Source: Hydrogenovibrio sp. SC-1
Lineage (GTDB): Bacteria > Pseudomonadota > Gammaproteobacteria > Thiomicrospirales > Thiomicrospiraceae
DNA: 64,000 bases
Assembly (NCBI RefSeq): GCF_002848135.1
Contig: NZ_PKGB01000007.1
Location: 62,001-126,000, forward strand
Direction: 5' to 3'
A program made the translations under genes and the position numbers. Under the pieces are notes generated by a model that made no database searches, was not told the DNA's origin, and worked only from the letters and a program-made list of their open reading frames with translations. Below are positions 25,786 through 44,255 of the stretch, piece by piece (positions within the stretch are counted from its first letter, which is position 1; the number at the start of each line of letters is the position of its first letter).

Positions 25786-26157
25786 ATGGTTTACTTGCCA
25801 GATCAACGAGACAGACGAAAATCGGCCAGGTTGAAACGCCCATTTAGTTTTCATCTCAATGGTGATGTCCTTAAGGGACGAGATGTTTCTGAAGTGGGAA
25901 TCAGTGTTTATTGCCCGAACGCAGGTAAGAGTGGTTTATTTTACTTTCGGAGTGGTCAAAAATTAAAAGATTGCTATATACAAATTGAAGGCCACACGTT
26001 TCATTTTACGCGTTTACGGGTTGCCCGGCTTGAGGAAGACGAGGAGTTGTTGTTATATGGTATCGAAATCGATCACATGCTTGAACCTGAAAAACAGCGA
26101 TTCCACGCCTTTTATACCAATTTATATGAGCAAAGTTCAAAGGCTGAAACTTTGTAA
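25786..26157 (+). CDS. PilZ domain protein (putative c-di-GMP receptor)
   Basis: 123 residues with a single PilZ-like domain. The two c-di-GMP contacts are plausible: the arginine motif in QRDRRKSARLKRPF (RxxxR) and DVSEVGISV (D/NxSxxG). The last ~25 residues form a helix (LEPEKQRFHAFYTNLYEQ) common in PilZ proteins. It would sense c-di-GMP produced by cyclases such as the one at 28.6 kb. It is short and stands alone ahead of the TRAP binding-protein gene. Confidence 0.75.
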   Translation: MVYLPDQRDRRKSARLKRPFSFHLNGDVLKGRDVSEVGISVYCPNAGKSGLFYFRSGQKLKDCYIQIEGHTFHFTRLRVARLEEDEELLLYGIEIDHMLEPEKQRFHAFYTNLYEQSSKAETL

Positions 26158-26192
26158 ATGTACGAAACCATTTTGAAGGATTGAAGGATAGA

Positions 26193-27305
26193 ATGAAAAG
26201 AAGAGAGTTTATAGGTGCCGTTGCGGGTGCCACGGCAGCCACGGCGATGACGGCCTGTGGTCAAAAAGAATCAGAATCTCAAGCAACAGAGAAAAGTGCT
26301 TCAAAGCCATTTGAAACAGTGCATTGGAAAATGGTGACCACTTGGCCTAAAAACTTCCCAGGCCTGGGAACGGGTGCGAATCGTGTTGCTGAATTGATTA
26401 ATGAGCTATCAGGTGGCCGTATTGAAGTCAAAGTGTTCGGCGCTGGCGAGTTAGTTGGTGCTTTTGAAGTGTTTGATGCCGTGTCGCGTGGCAATGCGCA
26501 ACTGGGTCATGCTGGCGCCTATTACTGGAAAGGCAAAATTCCGTCTGCAGTGTTTTTCTCATCTGTTCCGTTTGGGTTGACGCCGGATGAAATGAACGGT
26601 TGGCTCTATTCGGGCGGCGGCATGGCGCTTTGGGAAGAAGCCTATAAACCGTTTGGATTGATTCCAAATCCCGTGGGAAATTCTGGAACGCAGATGGGCG
26701 GTTGGTTTAATAAAGAAATCAATAGCCTGGCCGATATAAAAGGTCTAAAGATGCGAATTCCAGGCCTTGGCGGTGAAGTTTTGAAACGTGCTGGCGGCGT
26801 GCCCGTGACCTTGCCGGGTGGTGAGCTATTCCCATCCATGCAATCAGGTGCATTGGATGCCACTGAATGGGTTGGGCCTTATAATGATTTGGCTTTTGGG
26901 TTCCATAAGGTTGCCAAATATTATTATACGCCTGGGTGGCATGAGCCTGGCACTACCATGGAATGTATGATTAATGAGAAAGCATTTAATGCGCTGCCAG
27001 CAGATTTACAAAGTATTGTGCGTAATGCGATGAAAGTGGCCAATTTAGAAATGTTGGCTGAATATACGGCTAAAAATCAACAGGCATTACAAACCTTAGT
27101 GGAAAAACATCAGGTGCAATTGCGTCATTTCCCTGATATAGTGTTGAAAAAGCTAAAAGATCTGTCTGAAGAAGTCGTTGAAGAAGAGGCGGCCAAAGAT
27201 CCCTTAGCAACCAAAGTGTGGGCTTCTCAGCGAGCATTTAAAACCCAAGTGAGTCAATGGACCAACTTGTCGGAACTGGCATTTTTAAAGGCTCGCAATT
27301 TGTAG
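26193..27305 (+). CDS. dctP: TRAP transporter substrate-binding protein, Tat-exported
   Basis: 370 residues from the ATG at 26193 (AAGGATAG upstream). The N-terminus MKRREFIG is a twin-arginine signal; ATAMTAC at residues 16-22 may be a lipobox, giving a Tat lipoprotein. The body is a DctP/TakP-type fold with WPKNFPGLGTGANRVAELI, IKGLKMRIPGLGGEVLK (the Arg that binds the carboxylate) and GALDATEWVGPYNDLAFG. TakP-like members bind 2-oxoacids such as pyruvate; lactate or other carboxylates are possible. No membrane subunits are adjacent. The dctQ/dctM genes at 42.3-44.3 kb are the obvious partners. Confidence 0.85.
   Translation: MKRREFIGAVAGATAATAMTACGQKESESQATEKSASKPFETVHWKMVTTWPKNFPGLGTGANRVAELINELSGGRIEVKVFGAGELVGAFEVFDAVSRGNAQLGHAGAYYWKGKIPSAVFFSSVPFGLTPDEMNGWLYSGGGMALWEEAYKPFGLIPNPVGNSGTQMGGWFNKEINSLADIKGLKMRIPGLGGEVLKRAGGVPVTLPGGELFPSMQSGALDATEWVGPYNDLAFGFHKVAKYYYTPGWHEPGTTMECMINEKAFNALPADLQSIVRNAMKVANLEMLAEYTAKNQQALQTLVEKHQVQLRHFPDIVLKKLKDLSEEVVEEEAAKDPLATKVWASQRAFKTQVSQWTNLSELAFLKARNL
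26358..26367. repeat. CCAGGCCTGG copy inside the TRAP binding-protein gene
   Basis: Exact copy encoding part of Phe-Pro-Gly-Leu-Gly. A 9/10 copy (CCAGGCCTTG) occurs 400 bases later at 26760-26769, again encoding Pro-Gly-Leu-Gly. Confidence 0.9.
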
Positions 27306-27351: not shown

Positions 27352-28578
27352 ATGTCAAAAGTAGTGTTGATGCACGGCCAGAAATTTTTTTGGTTTGGAT
27401 TGCTTTTGTTAGTGATGTGGGTCTCTGTGCTCGTTACGCAAAATCCTTCAGTAAAAATAGGGGTTTTACATAGTCAGACTGGGTTCATGGCAGTGAGTGA
27501 GCGTCCAGTCATCAATGCAACTTTAATGGCGATTGATGAAATCAATGCCAAGGGAGGCGTCTTAAATCGTCCAATCGAAGCGATTGTGCTGGATGGAGCC
27601 TCTGAACCGCAACGGTTCGCCTATCAAGCAGAATCTTTGATCCAACAATATGCCGTCTCCGCTCTCTTTGGTTGTTGGACAACTTCTTCCCGCCAAGCCG
27701 TTCGCCCTGTCATCGAACAAAATCATCATGCCCTATTCTATCCCGTTCAATATGAAGGTAATGAAAGCTCTCCAAATATCATTTATTCGGCTGAAGTTCC
27801 TAACCAGCAGGTGATTCCGGCCTTGAGTTGGATCAACCAATATCTTGGCAAACGACTGGTTTTGGTTGGGTCAGATTACCTGTATCCGCGCGCTGTCAAT
27901 AAATTAATTCGTGCTCAGGCACAGCTGCTAGACATGACCGTGTTAGCAGAAGTCTATTATCCGCTAGACTATAATGAATCCCCTGATATAAATGCTTTAC
28001 TGGCCTTGAAACCGGATGTCATTGTGAACACCTTAAATGGGCAAGTCAATGCGAAATTTTTTAGTGCGCTCAATGAGAAGCAGTCAGTCGATTTAGAAAG
28101 CTTTGTTCCAGTAATGTCGTTTAGTTTGTCAGATACGGAAACCCAATATTATTGGCAGGAACAAGGTATTTCATTCGCAGGGCATTACAGTAGCTGGGGT
28201 TATCATCCTTCAATTGATTTACCTGAAAATAAAGCCTTTATTTCTCGTTATCAAGCACGTTATGGTGCAGATGCAACCGTCAATTCTCCAATGGTGAATG
28301 CATATAACAATGTCTATTTGTGGAAAATGGCGGTTGAAAGAGCTCAATCTTTTGAGCCAGAAATAATGCTGAAACAGGTCGCCAAAGTGGGGTACTTTGG
28401 CCCAGCGGGTAAGGTTTTTGTTGATAGCCAAAATCACCACACTTGGAAATCTGATTTTATTGCACAATATGATCAGAGGGGGCATTCCGCTGTGGTATGG
28501 CAAAGTGGACTAATACAACCCAAGCCGTATTATAAACTGATGAAAGCGCCAGGTGACAACCGAGGGCAAAATGAGTAG
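27352..28578 (+). CDS. Urea/amide-type periplasmic binding protein, probably a sensor subunit
   Basis: 408 residues. A long hydrophobic N-terminal helix (about 12-30) has no clear cleavage site, so the protein may stay anchored. The rest is a Peripla_BP_5-type fold like UrtA/FmdD/AmiC: VKIGVLHSQTGFMAVSE, AIDEINAKGGVLNRPIEA, ALFGCWTTSSRQAVRPV and FYPVQYEGNESSPNI. The last two blocks are typical of urea and short-chain amide binders. No ABC permease or ATPase gene follows. Instead the stop overlaps the start of a diguanylate cyclase gene by eight bases (ATGAGTAG), so a sensing role coupled to the cyclase is the best guess. Confidence 0.82.
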   Translation: MSKVVLMHGQKFFWFGLLLLVMWVSVLVTQNPSVKIGVLHSQTGFMAVSERPVINATLMAIDEINAKGGVLNRPIEAIVLDGASEPQRFAYQAESLIQQYAVSALFGCWTTSSRQAVRPVIEQNHHALFYPVQYEGNESSPNIIYSAEVPNQQVIPALSWINQYLGKRLVLVGSDYLYPRAVNKLIRAQAQLLDMTVLAEVYYPLDYNESPDINALLALKPDVIVNTLNGQVNAKFFSALNEKQSVDLESFVPVMSFSLSDTETQYYWQEQGISFAGHYSSWGYHPSIDLPENKAFISRYQARYGADATVNSPMVNAYNNVYLWKMAVERAQSFEPEIMLKQVAKVGYFGPAGKVFVDSQNHHTWKSDFIAQYDQRGHSAVVWQSGLIQPKPYYKLMKAPGDNRGQNE

Positions 28579-31270
28579 CGCTTTTTCCTGGCTGGTGGAT
28601 AAGCCGATAACAGGCATCCGCTATGTGTTTCAGCTTTTTCAACGCCACATGGTATTGCCTTTGGGCGCTTGGTTTGTGGTGGTGGCAGTGGTGCCATTGT
28701 TATTGGTGTTATGGCTAAGTCATCTACAGAACGAATCAATTATAGAAGCAGAATCCAAGTTGCAATTCAAAATGGAGTTGCAATATCGTATGGAGCGCTT
28801 GCAACAGTGGCTACAAGTTAAGAAAGGCGCAATGGTCGGGCATGCTCAAAACCCAACTTTGCAGACGGCTTTCTCAGACTCTTTGGCGATTTGGCAACAA
28901 ACGTCCAGCTTTCAGCAAGTAACGGCGCAATTAGATTTAAGCCAGCAAAAATACCTTAAATTTTTGGAAGAATCGGGCGGCTTTTATGATTTATTTTTTA
29001 TTTCACCCACCGGCCGAATTTTTTATACCTTGGAGCAGGAAGCCGACTTAGGCGAGGATTTAACACAACTTCCATTGCGAGACTCCCCTTTGGGAAAGGC
29101 TTGGAATATGTCACGCTATTTACTTGATATTCAGATGTCAAACATCGACTATTATCCGCCATCGGATCGGTTAGGGTTTTTCTTAGTGATGCCGATGATT
29201 CATCATGGTCGGTTAATCGGCTACTTTGCAGGACAGCTTGAAACCGGCGATTTGGTAACCATATTTGAACAGAAGCCTGCAAGTGTCGTTCCGGGTAAAT
29301 TTTGGGTGGGTGCAGTGCATGGGCGGATGTATGTTGATATTTTAGCGTCACTTGAAATGGCCCGTGGGCGTCAAATGGTGGCGTTGCCAGTTCAGTCCTT
29401 AACCAGTCAACCGATCTTACGTGCGATGCATTCCGAGTCAGGGGCAGGTAAAGCTATTGGAATAGATGGAGGAGACGTTTTTGCCGCTTGGTCGTATTTA
29501 CCCGATTTTGGTTGGGGTATGGTCTATCAAAAGCCACTGGATCAAGTTTATAAAACTTTGGATCAGCAGAATGTACTCTTCGTCATTGTGATTGTATTAA
29601 CGTTGATTTTTGTCAGTATTTTGTCTTTGCTGTTTTATGGTTATCTCTATGAGCCGATTGAAGCATTGATGACTGGTATGAAACGGTTTTCAACGTATAA
29701 AACCTTAAAGCCGGATCAATTGGCGGCTTCTAAACGTTACCAAGTCGCTATTAAGGGAAATAATGAATTTGCTCAGTTGGGTCGCGTTTTTAATGATATG
29801 TCACTCCAATTGGTTAAAACGCTGCGAGAGCAAGCCAAAAAAAATGCTCTTTTGGCTGAGCAACAAGCTGAAATTAAAGCCTATTCAGAAAAACTGGCGG
29901 AAAAAGTAGCGGAAAAAACGCAACATCTCGCTGCGACCCAGAATGAGATGCGGTTTATTTTGCATTATGCGCCAATGATGATTATGAATAAAGATTTGCA
30001 TGGGCGCTATACGATGGTGAATCGACAAGCAGCGGATTTATTGGGAAAATCAGCTTTGAGCTTGGAAGGATTAGATGATTTGGATATTTTTCCACCTACC
30101 ACAGCTCAGGTGATTCGTAAGCACGACAGTTTGGTACTCTCTGGTCGCGACCCCAAGCAATTTGAAGAATCTTATTATGGTCGTGATTTTCTCGTATTAC
30201 GTTTTCTATTGGAAAGCCCGGAATCGGGTATTTATGGGATTTGCAGTATGGGGGTCGATGTCACCGAACAAAAAGCCATTGAAAAAAAATTACAGGAAAC
30301 CAGTGAATTACGGCAAAGAGTCGCGTGGCAGCTACAGCAATCTTATGACATCCAGGACCAGTTTATCGCGAGTTTAATCATTGATGAGTCTGGCAAACTG
30401 GCTGAAACTAGCCAGGCCTGGTTAACCTTATTTGGTTTTGACAGAGCAGCTGTGCAAACAAAACCTTTGGAGCGGATATTGCAGTGTGGATGTGCTGATC
30501 CAGGTCAGTGTAAAGCTGAGGAGCAATGGCGTCAGTTGAAGAGAGTCATTCAAGAGGTTTTTGAGAGAGGTGAAACCTCTGTTGAAAGAGTTGAGTGGCT
30601 GGATTTAGAACAGCATACACGCTATTTTGAAGTCACCGTGACCCCTATTTGGGACGATAAAAATGAAATTCATCAAGTACAAACATTTTGGCAGGATCGT
30701 ACCAATGAAGAAAAAATTACGCGTTTAGCCATTACCGATGCTTTAACAGGGTTGTATAACCGTCATCAGTATAACGAGTTATCACAAACTTTGCTAAAAG
30801 ATGTGGCGCAACACAATAACGTGGAACGACTCGGTTTTGTGTTACTTGATGTCGACTTTTTTAAACAATATAACGATTCCTGTGGGCATCTTGCAGGGGA
30901 TGAAGCGTTACAGCAAATCGGTCAATGTTGCTTGGCTTTAAGTGAACAGACGGATCATCCTTTCTTCCGATTAGGCGGGGAGGAATTTGCGGCGTTTGTT
31001 GTGAATACCACTGAATCAGATTTAAAGGCCTTTGCGGAGCAGGTAAGGCAAAGCATTTTGGCCTTAGCCATTGAACATCCCAAAAATGCTGCCAGCCGTT
31101 ATTTATCAATATCGGTGGGCATTACTTTAGGAAAACTGCAATCGCTTGCCAGTATCGACCTGCTGTATCAGCAAGCAGATTTAGCGCTTTATCATGCCAA
31201 AGAATCAGGACGTAATCAGGTTGTATTATTCAGTAACCTGTCTGGAGAAGCCGATGTTGACGCACTATAA
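28571..31270 (+). CDS. Membrane diguanylate cyclase with periplasmic sensor and PAS domains
   Basis: 899 residues from the ATG at 28571, with CGAGGG upstream. Order: transmembrane helix (~28-50), a periplasmic dCache-like region (to ~335), second helix (~337-360), HAMP-like and coiled-coil part, a PAS domain (~460-570, FILHYAPMMIMNKDLHGRYTM...), a second PAS-like part with CGCADPGQC, and a GGDEF domain. The active site is intact (RLGGEEFAAF, GGEEF at 802-806). The RxxD inhibitory site is not seen before it. It is translationally coupled to the binding protein upstream and overlaps the next gene, so ligand binding outside may set c-di-GMP output. Confidence 0.88.
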   Translation: MSSAFSWLVDKPITGIRYVFQLFQRHMVLPLGAWFVVVAVVPLLLVLWLSHLQNESIIEAESKLQFKMELQYRMERLQQWLQVKKGAMVGHAQNPTLQTAFSDSLAIWQQTSSFQQVTAQLDLSQQKYLKFLEESGGFYDLFFISPTGRIFYTLEQEADLGEDLTQLPLRDSPLGKAWNMSRYLLDIQMSNIDYYPPSDRLGFFLVMPMIHHGRLIGYFAGQLETGDLVTIFEQKPASVVPGKFWVGAVHGRMYVDILASLEMARGRQMVALPVQSLTSQPILRAMHSESGAGKAIGIDGGDVFAAWSYLPDFGWGMVYQKPLDQVYKTLDQQNVLFVIVIVLTLIFVSILSLLFYGYLYEPIEALMTGMKRFSTYKTLKPDQLAASKRYQVAIKGNNEFAQLGRVFNDMSLQLVKTLREQAKKNALLAEQQAEIKAYSEKLAEKVAEKTQHLAATQNEMRFILHYAPMMIMNKDLHGRYTMVNRQAADLLGKSALSLEGLDDLDIFPPTTAQVIRKHDSLVLSGRDPKQFEESYYGRDFLVLRFLLESPESGIYGICSMGVDVTEQKAIEKKLQETSELRQRVAWQLQQSYDIQDQFIASLIIDESGKLAETSQAWLTLFGFDRAAVQTKPLERILQCGCADPGQCKAEEQWRQLKRVIQEVFERGETSVERVEWLDLEQHTRYFEVTVTPIWDDKNEIHQVQTFWQDRTNEEKITRLAITDALTGLYNRHQYNELSQTLLKDVAQHNNVERLGFVLLDVDFFKQYNDSCGHLAGDEALQQIGQCCLALSEQTDHPFFRLGGEEFAAFVVNTTESDLKAFAEQVRQSILALAIEHPKNAASRYLSISVGITLGKLQSLASIDLLYQQADLALYHAKESGRNQVVLFSNLSGEADVDAL
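30412..30421. repeat. CCAGGCCTGG copy inside the diguanylate cyclase gene
   Basis: Exact copy, read in frame within Ser-Gln-Ala-Trp-Leu. Confidence 0.9.
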
Positions 31271-33674
31271 AAACATTTTTATTATGATTTTCATCACCCT
31301 GTGGGTGCCTCTGGTCTTCAATTATTTTGGTTATGTGTTTATCGAGGGTCAGTGGATTCAGTTTGCGTTGCATTCATTAGTGGAAGTGATGGGGGCGGTA
31401 TTGGCGATCGTTATGGCTGTTATTATGTCGGAGGCACTGTCCTATCGACAGTTGAAGCCAATTTTCCATTGGGTGGTAAGGGCGTTTTTAGCATTAGCCA
31501 TCTTAGATCTTGTGCATGCGGCAATGAATGTAGAAACTTTATTTGTATGGTTTCATTCCATATCGGGATTTTTCGCTAGTTTATTACTGATGATTGGCGT
31601 CTTTGCACAAGGCATAAGCTGGAAAATTCCTGTACCACGAAAAATCTCCGTATTGGTTGTAATGGCGGTATTTGCCTTTTTGTCAATCCAATTTGATCAG
31701 TTGGTGCCCGCCATGACCGATAGTCAAGGCGAATTTACCCTGTTTGCAATGATGATTAATGTGTTGGCCGGATTGATGTTTGTGGTGTCTGGAGTGTATT
31801 TCATTGCGCAATATTTTAAACATGATGCAACGGAATACTTAATGATTGCTGGCTTTGCCTTTTTGATGGTGGCCTCTGATTTATCGTTTGCGATTTCCAG
31901 TCTTTGGGATTTCTCCTGGTGGGGGTGGCATTTATTACGGTTGTTGGCGTTTATTAGCTTAAGTTGGTTCTTTTATGAGTTGCTTAGAACGAAAGTTGAA
32001 GCCCAACAACAATCTCGGCAAACACTCGAAACGCAGCTGCATTCTACACGCCAAGAGCTTTTTCAAGTCTCACAATATGCTCAATTGCTCTGTAAAACCA
32101 GTTTGGTTTCTAAGTCGGATTTGGATGGCATCATTACCGAGGTGAATGACCAGTTTTTAGATTCAACTGGGTATCGGCGAGATGAATTGATAGGGCAGCC
32201 GCATTCGATTTTGAAAGGCGGTTATACCAGTCAGGAAACCTATGAAGCGCTATGGCGAACCATTCAGTCTGGAAAATTGTGGACAGGTCAATTGCAAAAT
32301 CGTAAAAAAAATGGCGATCTTTTTATGATTAAAATCGCGATTTTGCCTATCAAGAACGAAGCCGGCGAGGTGGTTGAGTATCTGGCGGCACGGCAGGATA
32401 TTACCGACGCGATTGAGCGAGAAGAGCGATTGACACAGTATCGAACGATGGATGACTTGACAGGCTTTAAGACGCGCTATCAATTAATTCAAGACTTAGA
32501 AGGCCAGCAGATTGAAAAAATTGCACTGTTAAATATTGACGATTCCAAAGAGATCAATGATTTTTTTGGAATGGCGGTTGGCAATGAACTTATTCGGCAG
32601 GTCGGGCACTATTTAGCGAAGGTTAAAGATCCTGCGTTACGGATTTATCGGATGCATGGTGATGAATTTGCTCTGACTTCTGTGATGAAGCAGCCGGTAG
32701 AGGGGTTTGAAGCGAAGATTGGTCAATGGGTAGATGAACTTTCTGATGTGCCGTTTGATGTGGCCGGACACACGATTCATATTTCGCTAAAAGCAGGGAT
32801 TGCAGAAGGCTTAGATAGTGCGCTGACGGCAGCGGATATGGCTTTGAAAGTTGCAAAAAAGACCAGCCGTTCTGTTGTAACTCAAAACGAAACCTATTTA
32901 TTCAGTCATCAATATAAGGAAAATGCGATTTGGATGCAAAGCCTAAAACAGGCATTAGCTGATAAGGGTATCTTGCTGGTATATCAACCGATATATGATC
33001 TGCAAAATCAAGGAAATATGGGCTACGAATGTTTGGTTCGGTTGGAGAAAGATGGCGCAATGGTTGAACCCGCTTATTTTTTGGAGGTCGCTAAAAAAAG
33101 CCGGTTGTATTCTCAGTTAAGCCAGCGAATTATGAGTTTGGCATTCAAAGCGTTTCATGATCGAACGGATATGTTCAGTATTAATATTTGTGCCGAAGAT
33201 ATGGTGAATGAGCAGATCCTGAATCATCTTCGGAATCTATGTAACAGCTATTGTTGTGCAGATCGGTTGTTACTTGAGTTTACTGAGCAGGAGGCGCATA
33301 AAAATCTAGATGCAGCCATTGAGTTTGTGAAAGAGGTCAAAGCGCTTGGCATTCAAGTAGCGATTGATGATTTGGAAAATGGGGTGACGGACTTTGAAGC
33401 GCTTTTAAAGTTACAGCCGGATTGTATTAAAATAGATGGTAAGCTGATTGCGCATTTAAAGGATGATGTTCTGACCAGCCATGGCAAGGATGCAGAGCTG
33501 GTTATTAATACCCTGGTGGGCTTTGCGCATCAACGCAGTATTAAAGTGGTTGCAGAGAGGGTGGAAAGCCAGTCGCAATTTTTAAAATTAAAAGCGTTAA
33601 AAGTTGATTGTGTGCAAGGATTCTTTACTGGAAAACCCGCTATAATCATGACAGAACCATTGAAAAAGACTTAA
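31254..33674 (+). CDS. Multi-helix sensor protein with PAS and degenerate GGDEF-EAL domains
   Basis: 806 residues from the ATG at 31254, preceded by GGAGAAG and overlapping the cyclase gene by 17 bases. About seven hydrophobic helices (residues ~5-235) form a MASE-like membrane sensor. A PAS domain with DSTGYRRDELIGQPHS and a PAC tail follow. The GGDEF motif is HGDEF (near 467) and the domain is otherwise weak. The EAL domain is also altered: ECL (from 592) for EAL, and DDLENGVTDF where active enzymes have DDFGxGYSS. It is probably a c-di-GMP binder or a partner of the cyclase rather than an active enzyme. Confidence 0.82.
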   Translation: MLTHYKNIFIMIFITLWVPLVFNYFGYVFIEGQWIQFALHSLVEVMGAVLAIVMAVIMSEALSYRQLKPIFHWVVRAFLALAILDLVHAAMNVETLFVWFHSISGFFASLLLMIGVFAQGISWKIPVPRKISVLVVMAVFAFLSIQFDQLVPAMTDSQGEFTLFAMMINVLAGLMFVVSGVYFIAQYFKHDATEYLMIAGFAFLMVASDLSFAISSLWDFSWWGWHLLRLLAFISLSWFFYELLRTKVEAQQQSRQTLETQLHSTRQELFQVSQYAQLLCKTSLVSKSDLDGIITEVNDQFLDSTGYRRDELIGQPHSILKGGYTSQETYEALWRTIQSGKLWTGQLQNRKKNGDLFMIKIAILPIKNEAGEVVEYLAARQDITDAIEREERLTQYRTMDDLTGFKTRYQLIQDLEGQQIEKIALLNIDDSKEINDFFGMAVGNELIRQVGHYLAKVKDPALRIYRMHGDEFALTSVMKQPVEGFEAKIGQWVDELSDVPFDVAGHTIHISLKAGIAEGLDSALTAADMALKVAKKTSRSVVTQNETYLFSHQYKENAIWMQSLKQALADKGILLVYQPIYDLQNQGNMGYECLVRLEKDGAMVEPAYFLEVAKKSRLYSQLSQRIMSLAFKAFHDRTDMFSINICAEDMVNEQILNHLRNLCNSYCCADRLLLEFTEQEAHKNLDAAIEFVKEVKALGIQVAIDDLENGVTDFEALLKLQPDCIKIDGKLIAHLKDDVLTSHGKDAELVINTLVGFAHQRSIKVVAERVESQSQFLKLKALKVDCVQGFFTGKPAIIMTEPLKKT

Positions 33675-42252: not shown

Positions 42253-43617
42253 TTAAAGGACGCTGGGTAGCCAGGTGGCCAGCGTTGGCCAAATCGCTAA
42301 GACAACCATAACAGTTAATTGGATGAGTATAAAAGGGGTGACACCTTTGTATAGGGTAGCAGTTGAAACGGACGGCGGCGCAACCCCTTTTAAATAGAAG
42401 AGGGCAAAGCCAAACGGCGGAGTGAGAAAGGCGGTTTGTAGGTTAATGGCAATCATAATCCCTAACCAGATGGGGTCAACCCCCATCATCAATAACACTG
42501 GCGCAACCACTGGCACGATAATATAGGTGATTTCAATAAAATCGAGGAAGAAGCCCATTATAAACATCACGACCATCACCAATAGTACGGCGGTAAAAAT
42601 GCCACCCGGTAGGTCGGTTAAAAATTGGTGAATGAGCTCGTCGCCACCCAACCCTCGGAAAGTAAGTGAAAAGAAAGCGGCACCGATAAAAATCAAGAAG
42701 ATCATACTGGTGAGTTTTAGGGTGTCTTGCATGACAGTTTGCAGTAAGGCTAAGTTGAGACGCTTACGTAAAGCCGATAGCAATAAGGCCCCCAAGGCTC
42801 CAAGAGACGCCGCTTCGGTGGGTGTAGCAAATCCACCAAGAATGGAGCCTAGTACTAATAAAATTAATGCCAAAGGGGGGATTAAACTCTCTAATACTCG
42901 GATCGCTAAGCTGCTGGTATTCGGTTTTTCAGGCGAGGCGGGTACGGTCTCGGGTTTGAAAAAGGCCATAGCGAGTACATAGCTCATATAGCCAACAACC
43001 AACAACATTCCTGGAAAGAGTGCGCCTATAAAGAGATCACCGACCGATAGCGTTTCAGGCGAAAAGATGCCCTGATTAAGCTGTGCTTGTTGATAGGCAG
43101 AAGACAAAACATCGCCCAAGAGTATGAGAATAATGGAAGGGGGAATGATTTGGCCCAAGGTGCCGGAGGCACAAATGGTCCCGGTTGCGAGTTTTGGGCA
43201 GTACCCTTGTTTAAGCATGGTTGGCAGGGCCAATAATCCCATCGTCACAACGGTGGCACCGACAATGCCCGTACTGGCGGCGAGTAGTGTGCCGACTAAG
43301 ATAACTGATATGCCCAAGCCGCCACGGAAGCCTCGCATCACCTCATCCATAGTGGTGAGGAGCTGTTCGGCCAGTTTGGATTTCTCTAAGAGAATGCCCA
43401 TAAAGACAAATAACGGGACGGCCATCAAGGTGGCATTGGTCATAATGGAGAATAGGCGATTGGGAATACTGTTAAGAAAGGCCATATCGAATGCGCCAAA
43501 CTGTGCGGCAACCAGCGCAAACAGCAAAGAGGTGCCCGCTAAAGTCAGCGCAACGGGAAAGCCCATTAGCAATGCTATGAATACACAACCAAATAATAGG
43601 AGTGACAGCCATTCCAT
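42253..43617 (-). CDS. dctM: TRAP transporter large membrane subunit
   Basis: 454 residues with about twelve hydrophobic helices, typical of DctM. Seen blocks: LLFGCVFIALLMGFPVALTLAG at the start, ASTGIVGATVVTMGLLALPTML, GTICASGTLGQIIPPSIILILLG and LQTAFLTPPFGFALFYLKG. It carries substrate with sodium after delivery by the binding protein. Its start shares one base with the dctQ stop. The binding protein is not adjacent; one is encoded at 26.2-27.3 kb. Confidence 0.93.
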   Translation of the reverse strand: MEWLSLLLFGCVFIALLMGFPVALTLAGTSLLFALVAAQFGAFDMAFLNSIPNRLFSIMTNATLMAVPLFVFMGILLEKSKLAEQLLTTMDEVMRGFRGGLGISVILVGTLLAASTGIVGATVVTMGLLALPTMLKQGYCPKLATGTICASGTLGQIIPPSIILILLGDVLSSAYQQAQLNQGIFSPETLSVGDLFIGALFPGMLLVVGYMSYVLAMAFFKPETVPASPEKPNTSSLAIRVLESLIPPLALILLVLGSILGGFATPTEAASLGALGALLLSALRKRLNLALLQTVMQDTLKLTSMIFLIFIGAAFFSLTFRGLGGDELIHQFLTDLPGGIFTAVLLVMVVMFIMGFFLDFIEITYIIVPVVAPVLLMMGVDPIWLGIMIAINLQTAFLTPPFGFALFYLKGVAPPSVSTATLYKGVTPFILIQLTVMVVLAIWPTLATWLPSVL

Positions 43618-44255
43618 TAAAACTTTTCCTCGTGTTGAGGGCGGTTCTCAGCCAGGAATCGGATCAATTTTGGGTCTTGTGGATAAAGGAGTTGGCAGCT
43701 AGTTTGTGCAATGACTGACAGCACTTGCAACACCATCAATAGTGCCATAATGATCATAAAACTTTTGAGTAAATATAAATAGGGTAAGCCGCCCGCTTCT
43801 GCAGAGCTTTCTTGAATTGCCCAGCTATCACTGACATAGTCCCAACCAATCCAGAGGATAAAGATCAAAGCAGGAAGGGCAAAGACCAAACTGCCCATCA
43901 AATCGATTATGGCTTGATTGCGGGGTGTAAAACGACTGTAAAATACATCTACTCGAACATGCGCATCTTGCTGGAGGGTATAGCCCATCCCCATCATAAA
44001 GAAAATGGCATGGGTATAGAGAATACTTTCTTGTAAAGCAATGGAACCCGATTCAAAGCCGTAACGCAAGATAACGATGCTTGCGGATAACACCACGAGC
44101 AGTAATGCCAGCCACGCGAAGGCCTTGCCAATGCCCTGCTGAAATTGGTTCTGCAAAATAACAAATTTCAGCAAATAGTCTGCGGTGCTAAGTGAGTTTG
44201 AGGGCTGGCGCTGGCTTTGCAAAACGGAAAAGGATCCTAATTTTAGGGTTGTCAA
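43617..44255 (-). CDS. dctQ: TRAP transporter small membrane subunit
   Basis: Up to 212 residues with four hydrophobic helices, overlapping dctM (TAATG). The DctQ pattern LRYGFESGSIALQESILYTHAIFFMMGMGYTLQQDAHVRVDVF is clear. The start is uncertain: the frame opens with TTG at 44255 and no ATG occurs in frame before the first helix. A TTG at 44222 or one near 44170 would also leave the helices whole. The ATG at 44263 is in another frame and stops after three codons. A sequencing or real start variant is possible. Confidence 0.85.
   Translation of the reverse strand: MTTLKLGSFSVLQSQRQPSNSLSTADYLLKFVILQNQFQQGIGKAFAWLALLLVVLSASIVILRYGFESGSIALQESILYTHAIFFMMGMGYTLQQDAHVRVDVFYSRFTPRNQAIIDLMGSLVFALPALIFILWIGWDYVSDSWAIQESSAEAGGLPYLYLLKSFMIIMALLMVLQVLSVIAQTSCQLLYPQDPKLIRFLAENRPQHEEKF

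Follow-up and report, generated by a model that had tools for sequence, protein, structure and literature searches.

Our analysis suggests, with a probability that we put at about 0.7, that three overlapping genes of Hydrogenovibrio sp. SC-1 encode a transmembrane receptor module that puts a diguanylate cyclase under the control of a tethered urea-binding protein, with an EAL protein opposing the cyclase and with an exchangeable sensory half. The module lies in a window of 64,000 nucleotides (the whole stretch of DNA that was analysed), to which all positions given without a locus or genome label refer.

In this model, the UrtA-type protein would be anchored through its N-terminal helix to the periplasmic side of the inner membrane and would bind urea in the periplasm. 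Urea would close the binding protein and so alter its seating on the dCache dimer of the cyclase, and the movement of the dCache domains would reach the GGDEF dimer by way of the second transmembrane (TM) helix and the PAS domains, changing the synthesis of c-di-GMP. The product of the third gene would be a phosphodiesterase in the membrane, which would reset the signal or counteract it, and the tethered binding protein together with the dCache domain would form an exchangeable cassette, to which other Pseudomonadota attach kinase, chemoreceptor, adenylate-cyclase and other outputs. The contact between binding protein and dCache domain is what we infer from the pairing of the genes and their parallel divergence. 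That the ligand activates the cyclase rather than inhibiting it is a weak guess.

Structure and conservation of the locus

The following features were assigned:

27352..28578, + strand: gene of a UrtA-type (Peripla_BP_5) binding protein, predicted to be a membrane-tethered urea sensor (408 aa; PF13433, E 3e-117)
27355..27435, + strand: N-terminal helix of the binding protein (aa 2-28), probable membrane anchor (hydrophobic; continuous helix in the model)
28571..28578, + strand: overlap of binding-protein gene and cyclase gene (8 bp)
28571..31270, + strand: diguanylate cyclase gene, TM-dCache-TM-PAS-PAS-GGDEF with GGEEF motif (899 aa; Pfam)
28733..29551, + strand: dCache domain in the periplasm, where the binding protein is proposed to dock (model pLDDT 89)
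30728..31219, + strand: GGDEF catalytic domain of the cyclase (PF00990, E 3e-35)
31254..31270, + strand: overlap of cyclase gene and GGDEF-EAL gene (17 bp)
31254..33674, + strand: gene of a multi-helix (MASE3-like)-PAS-HGDEF-EAL membrane protein, probable phosphodiesterase (806 aa; EAL, E 6e-52)
32937..33638, + strand: EAL domain of the third protein (PF00563)

The cyclase gene was taken to start at the ATG at 28571, an alternative GTG at 28553 being possible, and the GGDEF-EAL gene starts at the ATG at 31254. An earlier note on this DNA had described three genes overlapping by 8 and 17 bases, with a periplasmic-sensor diguanylate cyclase in the middle, a multi-helix GGDEF-EAL protein at the end and no transporter genes. 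The overlaps agree with the open reading frame coordinates, the third protein with its Pfam domains and the cyclase with a dCache domain between two TM helices and an intact GGEEF motif. Neither ABC permease genes nor urtBCDE were found at the trio locus, and the only member of the family that is linked to a transporter in this genome is fmdD, which lies on another contig together with permeases, two ATPases and a formamidase.

Conserved co-occurrence, which the same note had named as a check, was searched for and supports its proposal of a sensing module made of binding protein and cyclase without permease. A genome of the same genus (G003) contains the same trio in the same order, overlapping, with 75–77% identity and likewise after dctP, and in a genome of another genus of the family (G014) the three genes again overlap and keep this order, with identities of 53, 35 and 40%, and lie elsewhere in the genome. 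In two more genomes of the family (G012 and G018) a gene for a related binding protein overlaps a dCache-GGDEF gene. A same-genus locus that lacks the trio (L206) has an sppA-type gene within about 150 bp after dctP, whereas here the same gene lies beyond the trio, and dctP and the sppA-type gene are likewise close in L207 and L208, where the trio is absent, suggesting that the trio is present or absent as one unit.

Just upstream of the trio lie a PilZ gene (25786-26157) and then a Tat-type DctP gene (26181-27305), both of which were considered as members of the module and rejected. All 23 family genomes have DctP, most of them lacking the trio, and this window also holds DctM and DctQ of a TRAP transporter (42253-44255, about 15 kb from the DctP gene), the former being the only DctM of the genome; DctP is thus a core transport gene and belongs to a separate TRAP transporter. 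PilZ was detected neither at the module locus of G003 nor with the module of G014, and diverged copies of it are located near dctP in relatives without the trio.

The binding protein and its pocket

Against PF13433 the binding protein scores 392 bits, above the gathering score of 27, and against the NCBIfam model for UrtA (TIGR03407) 366.9 bits, below the cut-off of 492.75. The best solved matches of its predicted structure (pLDDT 92) are 8tg1, 7s6e, 8hic and 7s6f (Z 47–49), all of them urea-binding proteins, and these four rank slightly above AmiC. Neither an AxA signal-peptidase site nor a lipobox was recognised at the N-terminus, and in the predicted structure the helix of residues 2-28 is continuous and leads directly into the domain at residue 34, suggesting that the protein is probably tethered to the membrane by this helix, as had been supposed before.

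Nine residues line urea in the UrtA protein of Prochlorococcus (PMC10392092). The pocket of the window protein is formed by W109, T111, Y130, Q133, E135, Y176, Y178, N229 and S258 and reads WTYQEYYNS, compared to WSYQEYFNS in UrtA, i.e. seven residues are identical and two are replaced conservatively (S-to-T and F-to-Y). Mutation of F192 in UrtA has been reported to have little effect (PMC10392092); the replacement of UrtA S122 by T counts against urea. In 36 of the 43 receptor-paired proteins of the survey described below, the pocket is WSYQEYFNS or WSYQEYYNS. The amide-type FmdD of the same genome has WSYFEYWVS and AmiC has YSYPEYYVT, so that the two hydrogen-bond partners of urea, Q133 and N229, are kept in the window protein, with F and V in their places in FmdD and P and V in AmiC. 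As the pocket carries this urea signature, urea or a very close analogue is our best guess for the ligand. The earlier note had called the protein UrtA/FmdD-like and its ligand an amide or urea; the likeness to UrtA stands and that to FmdD does not, and the ligand is narrowed to urea, with a short amide as the rival.

A urease is encoded in the source genome (G000), which fits urea as the ligand, and in G003. It is absent from G014, although that genome carries the module, which counts against urea, and a strict link between module and urease was rejected.

The cyclase and the GGDEF-EAL protein

Pfam recognises two PAS domains and a GGDEF domain in the cyclase, while the dCache_1 match stays below threshold (30.8 bits with a gathering score of 45). 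The model of the periplasmic region folds like DvhD (9rc2, Z 19.7), DctB (3by9, Z 17.9) and many dCache chemoreceptors, and the region between the two TM helices is predicted to form a tandem PAS-like fold (Z 15–20 to many solved dCache domains). The GG(D/E)EF and metal/GTP site motifs expected of an active diguanylate cyclase are present (RLGGEEF and LLDVDFFKQYNDSCGH), and no canonical RxxD inhibitory site was found in the cyclase sequence. The structure 5ere was considered as a template for the contact between binding protein and dCache domain and was rejected, as its N-terminal part does not appear in the list of matches to the binding-protein model; residues 353-593 of this solved chain match the cyclase dCache domain, which is a lead only.

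The third protein contains an EAL domain, a PAS domain and a GGDEF domain of the HGDEF type according to Pfam, and a MASE3 match below threshold (27.4 bits, cut-off 31). The catalytic EAL residues (E, N, DD, K, E) are present in the motifs ECL, NIC, IDD, IKID and AERVE, pointing to a probable phosphodiesterase. The loop that follows DD is unusual (DDLENGVTDF), however, and its activity is therefore not certain.

Sensors and transporters in the Pseudomonadota

In a survey of about 800 genomes of Pseudomonadota, the binding protein served as query for 369 gammaproteobacterial genomes and a profile built from 11 sensor proteins for 398 genomes of Pseudomonadota, and the gene neighbourhoods of the best matches and of a set of transporters (20 loci) were read. 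The Peripla_BP_5 proteins were of two sorts, UrtA/FmdD proteins adjoining permeases and membrane-tethered proteins beside a dCache receptor. In detail, the UrtA/FmdD transporters at the 20 loci have mostly cleavable signals, adjacent permease genes and no dCache domain, and 43 pairs of a tethered protein and a dCache receptor were found, with overlapping genes in 39 of them and permeases in none. The case named earlier as a refutation, i.e. relatives beside permeases without a cyclase, applies only to the UrtA/FmdD transporters, which form a separate clade.

Since sensors and transporters were labelled by their gene neighbours, the fair test lies in those high scorers of the profile that had not been used to build it. 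A receptor is adjacent in 32 of these 34 new proteins and a permease in none; one of the two exceptions lies at a contig edge and the other has a weak Cache-like match in its own chain. A clean gap between the scores of sensors and transporters was only partly true, as the dCache-paired L169 and two cytoplasmic kinase-linked proteins score among the transporters. A C-terminal W...W tail is present in 37 of the 43 sensors and in none of the 20 transporters; the window protein and its closest relative are without this sensor-specific tail, which speaks against the module.

The phylogenetic tree unites the transporters in a single clade (SH-aLRT 96). Outside it, the sensors are divided among a main clade with about 40 members, a clade of three that includes the window protein, and two proteins from a sister genus. 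These are joined at a polytomy, so that the sensor tree is compatible with one origin or several; it also counts against the module that the grouping of the window protein with the main sensor clade is not firm. The distance matrices of binding proteins and dCache domains, uncorrected for species history, are correlated with r 0.72, a value reached by 0 of 2000 permutations. In addition, a binding-protein gene lies upstream of 9 of the 12 best dCache-subfamily matches in the 369 genomes.

The outputs of the receptors include histidine kinase, hybrid kinase, chemoreceptor, diguanylate cyclase, GGDEF-EAL and adenylate cyclase. At L070:7553-9280 the sensor gene overlaps a gene for a dCache class III adenylate/guanylate cyclase. 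Two chemoreceptors paired with UrtA-type sensors (L132:1577-3079 and L133:7571-9142) have a four-helix-bundle sensor domain and not a dCache domain, suggesting that dCache is not the sole docking partner. Sensors of 593-595 aa at L143:2571-4358 and L150:8129-9910 combine in one chain the UrtA-type domain and, after it, a Cache-like domain with a weak Pfam match. In a Holosporales MAG (alphaproteobacterial; L009:10173-13397), a UrtA-type sensor gene overlaps that of a TM-dCache-TM-dCache protein, whose C-terminal region has a YPFD motif, several TM stretches and matches, none of them significant, to TM regions of acetylcholine receptors (E 0.6–6) and may, judged from these features, be an ion channel domain of the pentameric type.

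Alternative explanations

The same receptor mechanism could serve a short amide such as formamide or acetamide, or another small nitrogen compound. The family does include the amide binders AmiC and FmdD, the genome contains a formamidase/FmdDEF operon, and T111 and Y178 are unlike UrtA; given that Q133 and N229 are retained at positions where both amide binders differ, and that urea-binding proteins are the best structural matches, we regard such a ligand as possible but unlikely. The dCache domain might instead sense a ligand of its own, with the binding protein modulating it slightly or acting separately. Direct ligand binding is common among dCache domains, including those that match the fold, and three close members of the dCache subfamily were seen without an adjacent binding-protein gene, but most members are paired, translationally overlapping and diverging together with a binding protein, which makes this explanation improbable.

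That the binding protein is an orphan which feeds the unlinked FmdDEF transporter, and lies beside the cyclase by accident, would fit the presence of the FmdDEF permeases elsewhere in the genome. A probable permanent TM anchor in place of a cleavable signal, a pocket unlike that of FmdD and the maintenance of pair and overlap over large distances and with differing receptors leave very little room for it.

Relation to known receptors

Binding-protein-driven receptors have been described as a general mechanism (PMC9602780), and the gene layout found here, a binding-protein gene beside a transmembrane GGDEF/EAL gene without a permease, is that of receptors of the NspS-MbaA kind. In NspS-MbaA of Vibrio cholerae, the transmembrane GGDEF/EAL receptor is driven by a binding protein in the periplasm (PMC8967002). 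As a kind, a c-di-GMP receptor driven by a binding protein is therefore not new. The likeness lies in the action on such a receptor, whereas here the binding protein is of the type I UrtA class and membrane-tethered, and the cyclase is a protein distinct from the GGDEF-EAL protein. NspS binds polyamines and belongs to a different family of binding proteins.

Arginine sensing in Salmonella requires ArtI, which is described as a putative periplasmic binding protein for arginine, as well as the dCache domain of STM1987 (review PMC8846402). This pair also combines a binding protein with a dCache diguanylate cyclase; here, in contrast, the binding protein is dedicated, tethered and encoded by a gene that overlaps the cyclase gene. 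ArtI is the binding protein of an ABC transporter and is encoded apart from the cyclase STM1987. LuxP-LuxQ of Vibrio also combines a type I binding protein with a tandem-PAS, dCache-like periplasmic receptor; LuxP is of the ribose type and binds AI-2, and LuxQ is a kinase. AmiC of Pseudomonas belongs to the same superfamily and likewise senses instead of transporting; it is cytoplasmic, controls an RNA-binding antiterminator and differs by its amide pocket. UrtA itself (8tg1, 7s6e, 8hic, 7s6f) shares about 40% identity, the fold and, apart from the two replacements, the pocket, but it has a cleavable signal and feeds an ABC permease, whereas the window protein is anchored and lies beside a cyclase.

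No UrtA-type sensors in c-di-GMP or urea sensing were found in the open-access literature searched, in which the family had not been linked to c-di-GMP or to dCache receptors. As far as searched, the use of the UrtA family as a sensor, the permanent tether, the overlapping gene pair and the combination of one sensory pair with many outputs are new. We consider the odds about even that a urea receptor cassette of tethered binding protein and overlapping dCache receptor exists throughout the Pseudomonadota, wired to c-di-GMP, phosphorelay, chemotaxis, cAMP and possibly an ion channel. If so, extracellular urea would be a general bacterial signal beyond its role as a nitrogen source. Urea would also be a concrete, testable input for a c-di-GMP circuit, in a field where most inputs are unknown. 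As one sensory pair occurs in nature with different outputs, transmembrane signalling by a tethered binding protein could be tested directly, and the cassette would serve as a ready part for urea biosensors.

Other binding-protein signalling loci

The source genome contains a second binding-protein/c-di-GMP locus on contig C3 (L007:3199-7570), where the gene of a 696-aa fusion of DctP and Peripla_BP_6 is immediately followed by a dCache gene and then a GGDEF-EAL gene, the latter two overlapping in different frames, possibly due to a frameshift. On contig C28 (L006:5241-8567) it encodes an 1108-aa protein without a signal peptide, consisting of an AmiC-like binding domain followed by PAS, GGDEF, EAL and BLUF domains. 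The gammaproteobacterial survey yielded eight related fusions (L089-L096), which are cytoplasmic and have GGDEF, GGDEF-EAL or kinase as the fusion partner; their pocket is mostly LSLSEYWAH, which is not urea-like. Finally, in a related genome an orthologue of the DctP gene at 26181-27305 (L213, G013:C11:465168-466277; with L194) is located divergently beside a dCache-like chemoreceptor.
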